Shown here piece by piece: positions 13,829 to 54,270 of a stretch of DNA of 64,000 nt. The translations under genes and the position numbers were made by a program. The notes beneath the pieces were generated by a model. It did not search any database and was not told where the DNA came from. It worked only from the letters and a program-made list of their open reading frames with translations. Source of the stretch: Anaerolineaceae bacterium (GTDB taxonomy: Bacteria; Chloroflexota; Anaerolineae; Anaerolineales; Anaerolineaceae); NCBI GenBank assembly GCA_029975475.1, contig JARKPB010000008.1:496001-560000 (forward strand). The letters are read 5' to 3'. Within the stretch, counting starts at the first letter, position 1, and each line of letters opens with the position of its first letter.

Positions 13829-14194
13829 ATGCCCCTGGCGTTATCCGTTGGGGATAACCGCGCGATGTCTGACAGCCTGATGAGGATGCTGCGGCGGCTT
13901 GATCTTTAAGGCAACCGAACGTTGACAACTCGGGCTGCTCTTGCTTCCCTTAAAGGGGGCATCCCGGATGTTGACTTCGCGGATATTCTATTGCCCAGCT
14001 TGGACGTATTCACAGCCCATGGATCTATCCGCCGCGATCCGGGGTTGGAAGCTGCCCCGGTCATCCCTGTGACCTCACCGGAACAGGTAAAGATTGCTCA
14101 GGGCACAAAAGGCGGCGGAACAGCTGCCGTGGTGATGAAACCTGCTACACTGAAAGCCATCGGGCTTGCAATTCGCAGCGTCGGGCTACTATAA
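13829..14194 (+). pseudogene. Decayed stand-alone response-regulator receiver domain
   Basis: Read in one frame from the ATG at 13829, a TAA at 13907-13909 interrupts what otherwise looks like a roughly 120-residue CheY-like receiver. Before the stop: LSVGDNRAMSDSLMRMLRRL (helix 1 after a degraded acidic pair). After it: RAALASLKGGIPDVDFADILLP (phospho-acceptor Asp in ADILLP), then SIRRDPGLEAAPVIPVTSPE with the conserved Thr, EQVKIAQG, and VVMKPATLKAIG with the conserved Lys-Pro. The order and spacing match a receiver. This explains the otherwise geneless 388-nt stretch between the MoeA fusion and bcp. Confidence 0.7.
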
Positions 14195-14195
14195 T
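14166..14195 (+). promoter_or_regulatory. Sigma70-type promoter of bcp
   Basis: TTGCAA, 18-nt spacer, TATAAT. It lies 18 nt before the ATG at 14214, with GGAGGT in between, and overlaps the end of the decayed receiver gene. Confidence 0.6.
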
Positions 14196-14213
14196 CAGAT
14201 CTGGAGGTGCAAT

Positions 14214-14672
14214 ATGCCAATCGAAAGTGGAAAAAAGGCTCCTGAATTTGAGCTGCAGGATGAAAACGGGGAAGTCCGCAGGTTGTCCGATTATCTTGGC
14301 AAACCGGTGGTTTTATATTTTTATCCAAAAGATGACACACCTGGTTGCACGACCGAGGCCTGTTCTTTCCGGGACGGCTACGGGGAGTATCAGCGAAACG
14401 GCATGGTCATCCTCGGGATCAGCCCGGATTCACCAAAATCCCATAAAAAATTTAAAGAAAAGTATGCCCTGCCGTTTACCCTGCTGGCTGATACAGATCA
14501 TCAGGTTTGTGAAGCCTATCAGGTCTGGGGAAGGAAGAAGTTTATGGGGCGCGAGTATGACGGGGTTTTTCGGACGACATTTGTGATTGATAAAGAAGGG
14601 ATGATTCGGAAAGTTTTCGAGAATGTAAAACCCGAAGGGCACGCGCAAGAAGTATTATCAGCGCTGGCATAA
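14214..14672 (+). CDS. bcp: Thioredoxin-dependent thiol peroxidase (peroxiredoxin Bcp/PrxQ)
   Basis: 152-aa PrxQ/Bcp peroxiredoxin reducing hydrogen and organic peroxides with thioredoxin. YFYPKDDTPGCTTEACSFRD holds the peroxidatic Cys45 and the resolving Cys50 five residues later, typical of PrxQ. The start at 14214 has GGAGGT upstream; an earlier in-frame ATG at 14166 would lie in the promoter. It has its own promoter and terminator, so it is probably monocistronic. Confidence 0.95.
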   Translation: MPIESGKKAPEFELQDENGEVRRLSDYLGKPVVLYFYPKDDTPGCTTEACSFRDGYGEYQRNGMVILGISPDSPKSHKKFKEKYALPFTLLADTDHQVCEAYQVWGRKKFMGREYDGVFRTTFVIDKEGMIRKVFENVKPEGHAQEVLSALA

Positions 14673-17735: not shown

Positions 17736-17767
17736 GTAAAACAGCGGGTGAATTATTGGAGATTCCG

Positions 17768-18448
17768 ATGGACCCTTGGGAAAAATTGAACCAAAAACTG
17801 CTTCAGTGCCGGGAGTGTCCGCGCCTTGTGGATTGGCGCGAAGCTGTTTCGCGCCAGAAGCGCAGAGCATTTGTCAATGAAATCTACTGGGGTAAGCCCG
17901 TCCCGGGATTTGGCGATCCGCAGGCGAAAGTGCTGGTCGTCGGGCTGGCTCCGGGCGCGCACGGCAGCAACCGAACTGGTCGGATGTTTACCGGGGACGC
18001 GTCTGGTAATTTCCTGTACCCGGCGTTATACCGGGCTGGTTTCGCCAATCAACCCGTTTCAAACAGCAGCCAGGATGGGTTGAAACTGAACGACCTGTAT
18101 ATCACCGCGGTGTGCCGCTGCGTACCGCCGGAGAACAAACCGACACCGCTGGAAATCAAAACCTGCGGGGTGTATCTTCGGAAGGAACTGGACCTGCTAG
18201 GTCACCTGCAGGGGGTGATAGCGCTTGGCGCGATCGCTTATCAGGTTATGGCTCAGATTTTTACAGAAAGGGGATGGCTGGAAAGGGTAAAACCATTTTC
18301 CCATCTGGTAGTCAACAACTGTGGCGGACATCCCTGGTTAATGGCTTCGTATCATCCCTCCAGGCAAAATACGCAGACCGGCCGCCTGACCGAAGCCATG
18401 TTTGATCAGGTCTGGAAAACCGCTCGTGGTTACCTCCGCCGCGTCTAA
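17768..18448 (+). CDS. Family 5 uracil-DNA glycosylase (UDGb type)
   Basis: 226 aa. GLAPGAHGSNRTGRMFTGD near residue 62 is the family-5 active-site motif A (no catalytic Asn/Asp of the classic Ung type). ASYHPSRQNTQTGRL near the C-terminus is motif B. Cys residues in CRECPRLVDWREAV, VCRCVPPENKPTP and EIKTCGVYL are placed to bind the 4Fe-4S cluster. It excises uracil and other deaminated bases from DNA. The ATG at 17768 has GGAG upstream; an in-frame TTG four codons earlier is less likely. Confidence 0.9.
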   Translation: MDPWEKLNQKLLQCRECPRLVDWREAVSRQKRRAFVNEIYWGKPVPGFGDPQAKVLVVGLAPGAHGSNRTGRMFTGDASGNFLYPALYRAGFANQPVSNSSQDGLKLNDLYITAVCRCVPPENKPTPLEIKTCGVYLRKELDLLGHLQGVIALGAIAYQVMAQIFTERGWLERVKPFSHLVVNNCGGHPWLMASYHPSRQNTQTGRLTEAMFDQVWKTARGYLRRV

Positions 18449-18524: not shown

Positions 18525-19259
18525 ATGAAAAATTGGAAAAAAGTCCTGGGAATTGTTTTCATAATTCTGCTGGTTGGAATCGCCGGTTTTCTTGTCTGGG
18601 CTGGCACGCCGGCAAAACCCGACCCGCAGGCGCTGGCTGCCGCCAGCCAGGCGGAGGAGTTATCCGACGGCACCCTGGTTTTTCTTCCCGCAGATTCATC
18701 CCGGGCAACAGGGGTCATTTTTTATCCGGGCGGGCGGGTGGATTACCGCGCTTATGCCCCCCTGGCGCTGGCGCTTTCAAAAGCAGGTTTTCCGGTCTAT
18801 CTGTTGAAAATGCCGCTAAATCTGGCTGTCTTTGACCCCAATGCCGCTTTGCGCATTGTGGAGTCTCATCCTGAAATTCGCCGGTGGGCCATTGGCGGTC
18901 ATTCTCTGGGCGGTTCAATGGCCGCGTTCACAATCTTCGAGCATCCTGACCTGGCCGCCGACCTGTTTTTACTGGCTTCATATCCGGCGCAGAACAACAA
19001 TCTATCGGACCGCTCCGATTTGCGTGTTCTCTCCATTTCAGCCTCAATGGACGGTCTTGCCACTCCGCAGAAGATCGCTCAAAGCCGGGCATTATTACCA
19101 CCGGATGCGCAGTATTTAGAAATCGTTGGCGGCAACCATGCCTATTTTGGTTATTACGGCGAGCAGCCCGGTGACGGGCAGGCGGTGATCAGCCGCGAAG
19201 CGCAGCAGGCCCAGGTGCTCGAAGCCTTGATCTTTTTCTTAAATGCGAATAGTGAATAA
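18525..19259 (+). CDS. Membrane-anchored alpha/beta hydrolase
   Basis: 244 aa. An N-terminal TM segment (about 7-26) probably anchors it with the enzyme outside. The alpha/beta-hydrolase domain has GVIFYPGGRVDYRAYAPLA (oxyanion region), the nucleophile elbow GGHSLGGSMA, an acid region SASMDGLATP and the catalytic His in GGNHAYFGYYG. It belongs to the dienelactone-hydrolase-like set (Abhydrolase_5). Substrate unknown. The next gene starts 2 nt after the stop and is also an alpha/beta hydrolase. Confidence 0.85.
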   Translation: MKNWKKVLGIVFIILLVGIAGFLVWAGTPAKPDPQALAAASQAEELSDGTLVFLPADSSRATGVIFYPGGRVDYRAYAPLALALSKAGFPVYLLKMPLNLAVFDPNAALRIVESHPEIRRWAIGGHSLGGSMAAFTIFEHPDLAADLFLLASYPAQNNNLSDRSDLRVLSISASMDGLATPQKIAQSRALLPPDAQYLEIVGGNHAYFGYYGEQPGDGQAVISREAQQAQVLEALIFFLNANSE

Positions 19260-19261
19260 AA

Positions 19262-20242
19262 ATGAAAAAAATTATCCGTGTAATCCTTGGTGTCCTGGCC
19301 GGTCTTATCTTGATTTTGGCGATCGTTCCTCTGTTGATTCCACTTCAGCCTTTGAACGACACCCGACCTGCTGAAACTTATGCGGATCCGGACTCCAGAT
19401 TCCTGGAAATTAACGGACTGAAGGTGCATTATAAGGTTTACGGCAGCGGCGAGCCGTTAATCATCTTGCTGCACGGGTTTGGCGCAAGCACATATTCCTG
19501 GCGCGAGGTTGCCGCTTCACTGGCCAGATATGGGACTGTGCTGGTGTATGATCGGCCGGCTTTCGGTTTGACCGCACGCCCGATGCCCGGCGAATGGCAG
19601 GGAGAAAACCCGTACAGCATTTTAGCCCAGCCAGACATCATCAACAGTTTTATCCAGCACCTGGGATTTGAAAAAGCAGTGCTGGCGGGAAATTCTGCTG
19701 GCGGCACGGTCGCGGTCTACACCGCCCTGGAAAAACCAGAAATTGTTTCAGCGCTGATCCTGGTTGACGCCGCGATTTACAACGGCGGAGGCTCACCTGC
19801 CTGGATACGACCGTTCCTCAGGCTTCCGCAGGCGGAACGCATCGGTGTTCTGGTTAGCCGGCAGATTAAGGACTGGGGTCCTCGATTTTTAGAAACCGCC
19901 TGGCACGACCCCGCAAAAATAACCAGTGCGATTCGTGAAAATTACCAGATCCCGCTCAATATTCAAAACTGGGACCGGGCCCTGTGGGAATTAACCCGCG
20001 CGCCTGGCCCGGCTGCGCCGCTTGCAGGGCGAATTGATGAATTGGATCTACCCGTACTGGTAGTTACCGGGGATGACGACCGCATTGTCCCCACCGATTT
20101 AAGCATTCGCCTTTCAGAAGAAATTCGGGGGGCGAGTCTGGTTATCTTTAAAAACTGCGGACACGTTCCTCAGGAAGAGTGTCCTGACCAGTTCCTTGAT
20201 GCGGTTATACCGTTTATCCAATCTTTAAAAGGAGGGCAGTGA
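19262..20242 (+). CDS. Membrane-anchored alpha/beta hydrolase (epoxide hydrolase/haloperoxidase-like)
   Basis: 326 aa. One N-terminal TM helix (about 7-27), then a classic alpha/beta-hydrolase fold: LLHGFGASTYSW (oxyanion hole), nucleophile elbow GNSAGG, VVTGDDDRIVP (acid) and NCGHVPQEECP (catalytic His). The nucleophile is Ser, which argues against a true epoxide hydrolase. Its stop overlaps the next start (TGATG), so it is translationally coupled to the peroxiredoxin-like selenoprotein candidate. Confidence 0.87.
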   Translation: MKKIIRVILGVLAGLILILAIVPLLIPLQPLNDTRPAETYADPDSRFLEINGLKVHYKVYGSGEPLIILLHGFGASTYSWREVAASLARYGTVLVYDRPAFGLTARPMPGEWQGENPYSILAQPDIINSFIQHLGFEKAVLAGNSAGGTVAVYTALEKPEIVSALILVDAAIYNGGGSPAWIRPFLRLPQAERIGVLVSRQIKDWGPRFLETAWHDPAKITSAIRENYQIPLNIQNWDRALWELTRAPGPAAPLAGRIDELDLPVLVVTGDDDRIVPTDLSIRLSEEIRGASLVIFKNCGHVPQEECPDQFLDAVIPFIQSLKGGQ

Positions 20243-20712
20243 TGTTAAAAACGGGAACAACGGCCGCTGATTTCATATTGGGTGATACTCAGGGCCGTGA
20301 GATTCGTTTGTCCGATTTTTTCGGCAAAAAAAATGTGGTTCTGGTTTTAATGCGCGGCTTTGCCTGACCATTCTGCCGCCGGCATCTGGCGCAGTTGCGC
20401 CGTGACTATCAGGAATTTGTAAGCCGGGATGCGGAGATCATCGCTCTGGGTCCGGACGGCCCGAATGCATTTCGCCGGTTTTGGGAAAAAGAATCCATGC
20501 CGTTTGTGGGATGTGCGGACATCGGCTCGAAAATTGCCGCGCAATATCACCAGGAAGTTAACTGGTTAAAGTTGGGGCGGATGCCAGCGGTGCTGGTGAT
20601 TGACAAAACGGGCCGGCTCCGCTTCGTTGAGTACGGTGAATCGATGAGCGACATACCGCCCAACGATCGTTTGTTAAACGTGTTAGATCAAATTAATGGT
20701 GAGAGTCAATGA
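20242..20712 (+). CDS. Candidate selenoprotein: AhpC/TSA peroxiredoxin-like with UxxC motif
   Basis: 156 aa if the in-frame TGA at 20365-20367 is read as selenocysteine (Sec42). The ATG at 20242 overlaps the previous stop and has GGAGGG 5 nt before it. The frame runs through a thioredoxin-fold N-terminus (TTAADFILGDTQGREIRLSD), VVLVLMRGFA-Sec-PFCRRHLAQL, then FRRFWEKESMPFVG, VLVIDKTGRLRFVEYG. Cys homologues of this family carry a CPFC/CPYC motif, so TGA falls exactly on the first redox residue and Cys45 remains. A GGCGC/GCGCC hairpin with an AGTT loop begins 20 nt after the TGA. Sequence on both sides is intact, unlike a pseudogene. Automatic annotation would start it after the stop. A nonsense mutation is the alternative. 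Confidence 0.8.
20388..20401 (+). promoter_or_regulatory. Candidate bacterial SECIS hairpin
   Basis: A perfect 5-bp GC stem (20388-20392 with 20397-20401) capped by AGTT, with the G in the second loop position. The loop begins 25 nt after the UGA, inside the range usual for bacterial SECIS elements. A weaker lower stem with a bulge may extend it (20383-20387 with 20402-20404). Confidence 0.55.
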
Positions 20713-21344
20713 AAACTTGTGTGATTTGGGGAATGGGTGATATTGGTGAGGCGCTGGCTGAAAAAGCCAGGGCGGAAGGATTTTCAGTAATCGCGGTTGT
20801 CCATAAGGAGAATCGTCTGGATAGGTCAAAACAATTAGCAGACCTGGTACTGGAATGCGATCTCGGAGATCCGCGTCAGGTGCAGGCGGCGGTGGTGGCG
20901 ATCAGCCAGCAGGTTGAAACCGTGGACTGGTGGATTTATTCTGCCGGTGATATTGTGGCTGCGCCAATGAATAAAATGGATCCATCCCAGTGGAAAAAGG
21001 TCCTGGATGCCAATCTGAACGGTTTTGCCTATACCCTAATGCTGGGGGAAGCCGTCCTGGCTACAGACAGTGTGATTACAGTCATCGGTGCGGTTTCAGA
21101 AAAAATGCGGCTGCCAGGTTTGTCGGCTTATGCTGCCGCGAAGGCCGGACTGGAGGCTGCGGCTGAGGTGGCTGCCAGAGATTTGCGGAAACCGGTTCAG
21201 GTGCTGCGGCCCGGGGCAGTGAAGACTTCTTTTTGGAATCGAGTTCCGTTTCGGATTCCTCCCGGCGCCCTGAGTCCATCCGAGGTCGCCAGTAAAGCAT
21301 ACGATTTTTATCAGGAAAAGAAGAGCGGGAAATTCGATTTATAA
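20709..21344 (+). CDS. SDR-family NAD(P)-dependent oxidoreductase
   Basis: 211-aa short-chain dehydrogenase. Compact Rossmann N-terminus CVIWGMGDIGEALAEKA, WIYSAGDI (NAG-like motif), VITVIGAVSEK (Ser position replaced by Ala-Val), and catalytic YAAAKAGLEAA. It starts inside the stop of the selenoprotein candidate (ATGA overlap), so the two are translationally coupled. Substrate unknown. It is the last gene of the operon and is followed by a strong terminator. Confidence 0.83.
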   Translation: MKTCVIWGMGDIGEALAEKARAEGFSVIAVVHKENRLDRSKQLADLVLECDLGDPRQVQAAVVAISQQVETVDWWIYSAGDIVAAPMNKMDPSQWKKVLDANLNGFAYTLMLGEAVLATDSVITVIGAVSEKMRLPGLSAYAAAKAGLEAAAEVAARDLRKPVQVLRPGAVKTSFWNRVPFRIPPGALSPSEVASKAYDFYQEKKSGKFDL

Positions 21345-53223: not shown

Positions 53224-54270
53224 TCATTTTACCATGAATGGCGGTCGTTCTTCCAGGATTCTGGCAATTTCATCCCGCTCGGGTGTGGGCAGCAACCGGC
53301 CAGTGTCTCCATCAATCACTTCAACACCGCTGCCAGCGCTGACCGAACCGATGCGGGCTGCGGTGATGCTGGCCGCTGATAGGCCGGTGATTATTTTTTC
53401 CGTTTCCTCCGGCGGGCAGGCAAGCAGCAGCGCGCCAGAGGAGATCGTCGCCCATGGGTCAAGGTCAAAGAATTCGCAGATCCGTTTGGAGATGGAGGCG
53501 ATCGGGACTGCTCTGGCTTCTACGCGCAACTTAACTTGACCGGCATATGCCATCTCATTCAGCGCAGCAGCCAGCCCTCCTTCAGTGGGGTCGTGCATGG
53601 CATGCACGCGGCCGTTTGCGAGCGCGGTCCGGGCATCCAGGCTGACACCGATTCCCGGAGTGTATATAAAATTCGCCGCCTGGTCAAGCTCAGCGGGAGA
53701 AAACGTCCCGCTTAAAGTTTTGCGGAACTCCCTCGCCAGAATCGCGGTCCCTTCCAGCGCGATGGTTTTGGTGAGGATCAGGTCGTCACCGACCTGAATT
53801 CCAGTCGGGAGCACCAGGCGGTTTTTATCGCAGGTGCCGAGCAGGGTTAGACTCAAAATAGGCCGGTCCAGTCCGCTGGTGATTTCTGTGTGGCCGCCAG
53901 CGACATGAATACCAAGGGGTTCGCAGGCTGAACGGATTTGGTCAGCGATTTGATAGGCAAGATTTGGGGTGCTTTGCCCTTCTGGCAGCAGTGCGGTCAC
54001 CAGCAGCCAGCGCGGTGTTGCCCCGGTCGTGGCCAGATCGTTGGCAGTGATTTGAACCGCGTACCATCCGATTTCATCCGCGGCAAATGTGATCGGATCG
54101 GTCTTCGCGACAAGCAGTTGCTGCCCCAGTTCAATCACCGCGCAATCCATGCCAACGGCAGGGCCGGCGAGGATGGAGGGATCGTCCACCGGCAGTCGGC
54201 TGATCAGGGTATTTAATGCTTCAGGGGGGAGTTTTCCGGTTTTCAGGATTGATTGCGGTTCATTCTTCAT
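53224..54270 (-). CDS. AIR synthase-related (HypE/PurM-fold) protein
   Basis: 348 aa. PurM-like fold: Asp-rich GMDCAVIELG, DPITFAADEIGWYAVQITANDLATTGATP, a middle VAGGHTEITSGLDRPILSLTLLG, and MHDPTEGGLAAALNEMA. The pattern is closest to HypE-like AIR synthase-related proteins. The C-terminus (LEERPPFMVK) lacks the Cys that true HypE uses to carry the cyano group, and no hyp genes are present, so hydrogenase maturation is unlikely. ATP-binding role probable; reaction unknown. The ATG at 54270 fits the -10 at 54290-54295. Confidence 0.8.
   Translation of the reverse strand: MKNEPQSILKTGKLPPEALNTLISRLPVDDPSILAGPAVGMDCAVIELGQQLLVAKTDPITFAADEIGWYAVQITANDLATTGATPRWLLVTALLPEGQSTPNLAYQIADQIRSACEPLGIHVAGGHTEITSGLDRPILSLTLLGTCDKNRLVLPTGIQVGDDLILTKTIALEGTAILAREFRKTLSGTFSPAELDQAANFIYTPGIGVSLDARTALANGRVHAMHDPTEGGLAAALNEMAYAGQVKLRVEARAVPIASISKRICEFFDLDPWATISSGALLLACPPEETEKIITGLSAASITAARIGSVSAGSGVEVIDGDTGRLLPTPERDEIARILEERPPFMVK

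Follow-up and report, generated by a model that had tools for sequence, protein, structure and literature searches.

Does the gene at positions 20242 to 20712 of this Anaerolineaceae DNA (64,000 nucleotides (nt) of contig JARKPB010000008.1, here referred to as the window) encode a selenoprotein, or has a stop codon broken it? Translated on the forward strand, the frame gives 156 residues with a single internal stop, a TGA at codon 42 in the context RGFA-stop-PFCRRH; if this codon is decoded as selenocysteine (Sec, U), the protein reads RGFA-U-PFC. The standard code splits the frame, and the list of open reading frames holds only a 105-residue piece with a TTG start. The original prediction placed the TGA exactly at the first cysteine of a CPFC motif and considered both sides of it intact. 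The translation agrees with the first point; on the second, the read-through protein matches the Pfam family AhpC-TSA (PF00578) from residue 5 to residue 128, a stretch that extends to either side of codon 42 (79.2 bits, cut-off 26), and also scores above the cut-off of the Redoxin family. Judging from sequence comparison, we put the probability that this is a selenoprotein gene, with the UGA read as Sec, at about 97%. The more complete account, a Sec protein of peroxiredoxin fold that depends on SelB and a hairpin for Sec insertion and uses a UxxC redox pair, is also very probable. Coordinates are collected in Table 1.

One rival explanation is that a Cys codon turned into TGA once, through decay of a pseudogene or through a sequencing error, so that the gene is a truncated fragment. 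The split frame and the 105-residue piece are in keeping with this, and the host genome is a draft (3.15 Mb in 20 contigs, 98.9% complete). In a search of 101 genomes, the host's own and 100 relatives, 97 gave some match to the read-through protein, and in 45 (own included) a TGA-containing match scored 127 bits or more. A scan of contigs found 310 relatives, the best 80 of which were kept and read, and TGA stands at codon 42 in 80 of these 80 loci. Since one of the two scan patterns demanded a Cys codon at this position, the scan does not favor UGA. By their titles, the majority of the kept loci are from Chloroflexota; Thermomicrobiaceae, Syntrophaceae, other deltaproteobacteria, Myxococcales, KSB1, Spirochaetes, Coriobacteriia, and Ignavibacteriae are also represented, and no relatives were found on viral contigs. 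Column 42 of alignment A1 (33 rows) holds only U or C; the Cys homologs align at residue 42, as expected from the prediction. Counting identical proteins once reduced 147 rows to 134 distinct proteins (127 UGA and 7 Cys), and two rows were left out of the hairpin counts and the tree: L098, which is Bcp-like and has no matching motif, and L065, which is the same gene as L042. Synonymous distances were usable for 123 of 379 UGA gene pairs (68-93% protein identity), in which the median ratio of nonsynonymous to synonymous substitution rates (dN/dS) is 0.166 before the UGA and 0.132 after it. Selection after the UGA is as strong as before it, and the relatives give no sign of decay. Because the TGA is conserved and the sequence behind it is constrained, we regard the pseudogene explanation as already refuted, with a negligible probability; the conserved hairpin described below also speaks against it.

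The prediction implies that the host can insert Sec, and its genome holds all four known parts of the bacterial machinery, each scoring above its family's cut-off. The tRNA-Sec gene lies on contig C3 (273198-273290; 69.5 bits, cut-off 47) and is called tRNA-SeC, anticodon tca, by ARAGORN. SelA is encoded on C18 (1198271-1199338; 428 bits), SelB on C19 (77350-79230; 329.8 bits, cut-off 242), and SelD on C10 (43190-44125; 358.8 bits, cut-off 125), the last with one in-frame TGA. Weaker matches to tRNA-Sec, SelB, and SelD occurred in all 14 control genomes, and we counted only matches above the cut-off, which were found in 5, 2, and 2 of the 14, respectively. In bacteria generally, SelD supplies the selenophosphate with which SelA forms Sec on tRNA-Sec, and a complex of SelB, GTP, and Sec-tRNA binds the hairpin and delivers Sec at the UGA; the same steps would operate here. 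A second rival explanation keeps the UGA as a sense codon for another residue, either by genome-wide reassignment or by insertion of Cys through a tRNA-Sec/SelB-like route. Column 42 is Cys in the relatives that lack the UGA, and Cys at the UGA would thus be tolerated. However, SelA and SelD, which are needed for Sec synthesis, are present, SelD itself has a UGA, and the hairpin is located where SelB-dependent insertion requires it. General reassignment is further contradicted by the use of TGA to end both this gene and the upstream hydrolase gene. Decoding as another residue is therefore very improbable.

Among the relatives, UGA genes and SelA occur together. All 45 genomes with a TGA-containing match have a SelA match, at 385 bits or more in 43 of them, and SelA was found in 13 of 14 tested genomes of kept loci. 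Across the 101 genomes, 85 have SelA at an E value of ≤0.001 (a few of these matches, in G038, G070, and G072, are weak), and 16 have none. Three genomes (G061, G075, and G088) carry only a Cys form at 127 bits or more. Two of these, G075 and G088, have no SelA match and no SelB above the cut-off, and their best tRNA-Sec scores are 47.7 and 46.5 (cut-off 47), compared with 66.9-76.4 in G018, G044, and G100. The third, G061, has a best tRNA-Sec score of 47.9, SelB above the cut-off, and a SelA gene interrupted by a run of N. Decay of SelA in G061 was considered and rejected, as two SelA pieces flank the run, an assembly gap, and SelB is present. The absence of sel genes from draft genomes is weak evidence in any case, because G100 has SelA and tRNA-Sec with no SelB above the cut-off.

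The other principal evidence is the hairpin behind the UGA, the putative selenocysteine insertion sequence (SECIS). The prediction described a GC hairpin that begins 20 nt downstream and has a G in its AGTT loop, and the stem indeed begins 20 nt after the TGA, with 25 nt between the TGA and the loop; the folding energy is -14.3 kcal/mol for positions 20365-20415 and likewise for 20368-20408. As listed in a passage of PMC13188914, bacterial SECIS elements have a loop of 3-9 nt, a stem of 4-16 bp, a G in the first two loop positions, a distance of 16-37 nt from the UGA, and a minimum free energy of -7.5 kcal/mol or lower. The window hairpin fits all of these constraints (loop AGUU of 4 nt, stem of 6 bp, spacing of 25 nt, -14.3 kcal/mol). 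Its loop is unlike the one in E. coli fdhF. Its significance, as judged from these sequences, comes from comparison across the family and not from the single sequence: 124 of the 127 distinct UGA genes, and 0 of the 7 Cys genes, have a hairpin with a GTT-containing loop and a stem of 4 bp or more.

Such a hairpin might instead be a by-product of a conserved peptide, MAQLRQ, and codon bias, with no SECIS involved. The peptide is strongly conserved, and one Cys gene, L070, retains a 4-bp stem (loop AGCT) at the same place. In contrast, when the protein sequence and the codon usage of the family were held fixed, 500 synonymous resamplings gave a mean contiguous stem of 1.21 bp (standard deviation, 0.16; maximum, 1.88), compared with 6.04 bp in the 112 genes. 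The Leu codon in the loop is TTG in 110 of 112 genes versus 19% elsewhere, and the Cys genes carry ATG, CTG, CTT, or CTC where the UGA genes carry TTG. Paired changes were counted in 112 aligned segments, with identical 45-base segments taken once and register 2 (the 16-nt register described below) excluded. In these, pairing holds in 97.0% of cells, and both partners have changed in 13 cells, which fall in four of the six pairs, where shuffles gave 1.5 such cells; none of 500 shuffles reached 13 cells, and 4 of 500 reached four pairs. Slid versions of the pairing gave 0 to 9 double-changed cells. The same loop also occurs in the second register with a different peptide. These shuffles and resamplings take no account of relatedness among the genes; in the resampling, the 16-gene register-2 set held two register-1 genes (L034 and L040), and L158 was in both sets. 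Per-gene energy z scores against synonymous shuffles were uninformative, with means of -1.28 for 60 UGA rows and -0.71 for 8 Cys rows (one gene twice). Taken across the family, the hairpin is conserved beyond protein constraint and under selection of its own, and the chance that it is only a by-product of peptide and codon usage is close to nil.

The position of the hairpin splits the UGA genes cleanly: it lies 25 nt from the UGA in 111 genes and 16 nt from it in 14, while 2 genes fit neither rule. One 16-nt gene, L131, has a perfect stem of only 3 bp, and L036, which fits neither register, has a 6-bp stem with the loop GGCT. On the tree, which has a midpoint root only, bootstrap values that have not settled, and rows that are a chosen sample, 13 of the 14 16-nt genes form one group (support 99/92). 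The remaining one, L048, whose source genome has 10% contamination, belongs to a separate five-gene group (100/90) in which L037, L059, and L105 are at 25 nt and L051 fits neither rule. Unless this part of the tree is in error, the register shift, which brings the hairpin 9 nt nearer the UGA, would have occurred two or more times. The encoded peptide is mostly RAQLAR, or REQLAH, in the 16-nt register and MAQLRQ in the 25-nt register. We lean slightly toward the view that the SECIS element is able to shift its position within the coding sequence, with the peptide remodeled to fit the AGUU(G)-loop hairpin.

Replacement of Sec by Cys is the other less expected feature of this branch, alongside the hairpin 9 nt closer to the UGA. 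The 7 Cys genes require at least three changes on the tree. The clearest case is L042, from Leptolinea sp. HRD-7 (G044), a Cys gene within a group (support 100/95) that otherwise consists of three UGA genes, two from Leptolinea metagenome-assembled genomes (MAGs) and one from L. tardivitalis (G011/G103). L042 has the same neighbors as the L. tardivitalis gene (uracil-DNA glycosylase [UDG], Abhydrolase_5, and enolase), and the HRD-7 genome retains SelA and tRNA-Sec, plus a second copy with UGA. A different Cys relative, L067 (G018, contig C25), reads CPFA, both Sec and the second Cys being replaced; two UGA paralogs (L068 and L088) remain in G018.

Several observations weigh against the account of a SelB-dependent Sec protein with a UxxC redox pair. 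By itself, the window hairpin is unremarkable against dinucleotide shuffles (z of -0.85 to 0.48 in four foldings). The Cys gene L070 keeps a stem, and the pairing slid by 2 still gives 9 double-changed cells in three pairs (true pairing, 13 in four). With regard to the machinery, the SelA matches of G009 (164 bits) and G027 (53.7 bits) are fragments. L097 (in G013), a more distant UGA relative, is in a genome without SelA, SelB, or tRNA-Sec over the cut-off, and in G038, which carries another distant UGA relative (L101), the SelA match is only 45 bits. The Ignavibacteriae MAG that carries L105 gave no SelA match; L105 falls among Anaerolineaceae genes in the tree, with UDG and enolase alongside, and its contig may be mis-binned. 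As to sampling, the genomes are related, so the 45 of 45 are not independent, and the 80 kept loci are the best of 310, the remaining 230 being unread. Finally, the closest folds are peroxiredoxins, and a peroxiredoxin-type Arg may be present. Against these points stand the conserved TGA, the hairpin, the selection on both sides of the UGA, and the sel machinery, which together lend strong support to the selenoprotein reading as originally predicted.

Other probable selenogenes were seen alongside this one. The host SelD gene (L029) is a predicted selenoprotein gene itself, with the UGA in NCAG-U-ASK; its hairpin, read by eye, is GCGC-AGAA-GCGC. As the loop is AGAA and not AGUU, the AGUU loop is not common to all selenogenes of the host genome. 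Use of a SECIS model of the family to mark other host genes was rejected: its best match beyond the window gene had an E value of 0.09, the model being specific to the family and other SECIS types being missed by it. Two further groups of UGA peroxiredoxin-like genes occur in the same order of bacteria, with 28-42% identity to the window protein and an AGTT-loop hairpin in each gene. One (L064 and L085-L092; 9 read) has the motif UPHC or ULHC, and the other (L094, L095, L097, and L099-L101; 6 read) has UMQC or ULQC; two scanned members of these groups matched no NCBIfam model above its cut-off. L097 (G013, contig C11, 9015-9404) has the motif UMQC and the hairpin CGCCC-AGTTG-GGGCG in a genome that is 95% complete, and it is either an orphan selenogene or a case of assembly gaps.

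What chemistry would such a protein carry out? The original name, peroxiredoxin-like, holds for the fold but perhaps not for the chemistry. An AlphaFold model of the read-through protein (predicted local distance difference test score, 94.9) is Bcp/AhpE-like, with template modeling (TM) scores of 0.90 for Bcp1 (3drn), 0.88 for AhpE (1xxu), and 0.73-0.76 for ResA. The active-site motif of peroxiredoxins is PxxxT/SxxC(U). This motif is absent here: among the 127 distinct UGA genes, none has Pro at U-7 and 7 have Thr or Ser at U-3, and Gly39 is invariant in alignment A2. The window protein has UPFC, and all 127 genes have UxxC. Because the PxxxT/SxxC motif is missing, we favor, with modest confidence, thiol-disulfide-type over classical peroxiredoxin chemistry. 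Sec42 and Cys45 would form the UxxC redox pair, the selenolate attacking first and a Se-S bond to Cys45 following, and the protein would act as a thiol:disulfide-type oxidoreductase, perhaps with some reduction of peroxide or organic hydroperoxides. By eye, the read-through protein has no apparent leader or anchor.

Alternatively, the protein could be a true Sec-peroxiredoxin in which Sec42 is peroxidatic, working as a Bcp/PrxQ- or AhpE-type hydroperoxidase. Its nearest folds, its AhpC-TSA and Redoxin matches, and the 24 of 33 A1 members that match the PrxU model (NF040737) at an E value of ≤0.001 are consistent with this, as is the invariant Arg113, which aligns with the Arg of Bcp1 (3drn). 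The structure alignments disagree on this point, in that Pro115 aligns with the Arg of 2ywn; both Arg residues are taken to be the catalytic Arg that precedes the last strands in peroxiredoxins. Apart from the missing motif and the universal UxxC, the NCBIfam peroxiredoxin models, which are far under their cut-offs for the window protein (for example, 40.7 of 140 bits), argue against it, and we consider a true Sec-peroxiredoxin possible but the less probable assignment.

Comparison with named families gives a similar picture. The best NCBIfam model of the window protein is the SelL-related redox protein (NF040769), which all 33 A1 members match at an E value of ≤0.001; however, the window protein scores 56.2 bits, under the cut-off of 120, over residues 8-93 only, and has UxxC. 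The SelL motif is UxxU. The family shares the peroxiredoxin fold with Sec-peroxiredoxin PrxU and Prx (TxxU) but lacks the PxxxT/SxxU motif, and the window protein itself has no NF040737 match at an E value of ≤0.001. A CxxC-type pair is shared with the ResA/TlpA thiol-disulfide oxidoreductases, yet the score for the ResA model (NF002854) is 48.2 bits, under the cut-off of 170, there is no leader or anchor by eye, and the overall structure is nearer to Bcp1/AhpE. From Bcp1 and AhpE, which are alike in overall fold, the family differs in the absent PxxxT/SxxC motif, and identity is 24-28%.

Thiol:disulfide oxidoreductase selenoproteins of the peroxiredoxin-like kind (pfam00578, UxxC/UxxU) are a known class, as passages of PMC1794560, PMC9312934, and PMC13188914 describe, and the first of these reports them from Syntrophus, Desulfotalea, and Geobacter. 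The genes studied here share with this class the AhpC-TSA domain, the UxxC motif with Sec first, and the SECIS directly behind, and by these features they are a widespread branch of it. Unlike in the class as described, Chloroflexota supply most of the kept loci here and the AGUU loop is almost invariant; the published family, represented by WP_010940744.1, may include this branch. The table in PMC1794560 gives no Sec-to-Cys event for the peroxiredoxin-like family, whereas here Cys genes are nested among UGA genes. Passages of the same paper count three selenoproteins of three families in Chloroflexi, and Sec use in Chloroflexota is therefore not new. This branch may be among the peroxiredoxin-like UxxC subfamilies of metagenomes described in PMC1088965 and PMC2398784. 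The titles, abstracts, and passages searched did not mention a peroxiredoxin-like selenoprotein from Anaerolineaceae.

Table 1. Positions in the window of the predicted selenoprotein gene, its elements, and its neighbors
Feature	Position	Strand	Basis or remark
Predicted peroxiredoxin-like UxxC selenoprotein gene	20242..20712	+	156 residues, Sec at 42; own stop TGA at 20710-20712
In-frame TGA, codon 42, predicted to be read as selenocysteine	20365..20367	+	TGA in 80/80 kept loci; alignment A1 column 42 is U/C only
Cys45, second residue of the predicted UxxC redox pair	20374..20376	+	Cys at U+3 in 127/127 distinct UGA genes
Putative SECIS hairpin, TGGCGC-AGTT-GCGCCG	20387..20402	+	Stems 20387-20392 and 20397-20402, loop 20393-20396; fits PMC13188914 constraints
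Arg113-Met-Pro115	20578..20586	+	Arg113 and Pro115 invariant in A2; one at the peroxiredoxin Arg column
Uracil-DNA glycosylase superfamily gene, upstream neighbor	17756..18448	+	Pfam UDG, 113.9 bits; no functional partnership claimed
Alpha/beta hydrolase (Abhydrolase_5), hydrophobic N terminus	18525..19259	+	Pfam
Alpha/beta hydrolase (Abhydrolase_1), hydrophobic N terminus	19262..20242	+	Pfam; stop shares a base with the selenogene start
Short-chain dehydrogenase/reductase (SDR)	20709..21344	+	Pfam; start overlaps the selenogene stop

The gene was also predicted to be tightly coupled to its neighbors, in an operon with two anchored hydrolases and an SDR. The coupling is plain from the letters: the stop TGA of the upstream hydrolase (20240-20242) has one base in common with the ATG of the selenogene, and the ATG of the SDR overlaps the stop of the selenogene. 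The operon is real here but rarely kept elsewhere, and "anchored" means hydrophobic N termini judged by eye. Neighbors were counted after relatives of <44% identity and the window gene itself were excluded. Of 106 relatives whose flank was long enough, 21 have an Abhydrolase_1-type hydrolase no more than 250 nt upstream, and 8 have an Abhydrolase_5-type hydrolase directly upstream with the other hydrolase absent; an SDR follows at a distance of at most 250 nt in 6 of 109. A same-strand UDG gene occurs at some point upstream in 21 relatives. Only 4 distinct relatives have the hydrolase, the selenogene, and the SDR side by side, which is weak. In this lineage, the selenoprotein would be produced alongside two membrane-near hydrolases and an SDR; gene order is a weak guide to its function, and a functional link to the hydrolases or the SDR is unlikely. 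Elsewhere in the window, a second peroxiredoxin gene, of the Cys-type Bcp/PrxQ kind, is found 6 kb upstream in the same orientation (14166-14672, +; NF006960, 185 bits, cut-off 140). A gene at 53494-54237 (-) gives a weak match to the SelD model (84.6 bits, under the cut-off of 125) and presumably encodes another AIRS-family protein.

The in-frame UGA is shared by related genes from many Chloroflexota, from Thermodesulfobacteriota/Myxococcota, and from certain other bacteria. The standard code shows only a truncated piece of the gene, so a common redox selenoprotein may be widely misannotated. If our interpretation of the hairpin is true, the SelB of these bacteria would read a nearly fixed loop in the peroxiredoxin-like family, and the RNA element would shape the sequence of an enzyme helix. 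The register shifts, together with the Sec-to-Cys reversions that lack a GTT-loop hairpin, would then amount to a natural experiment on the mutual constraint of SECIS and protein. With a near-fixed loop and a movable stem, the recognition of SECIS elements by SelB outside the Enterobacteria would become directly testable.

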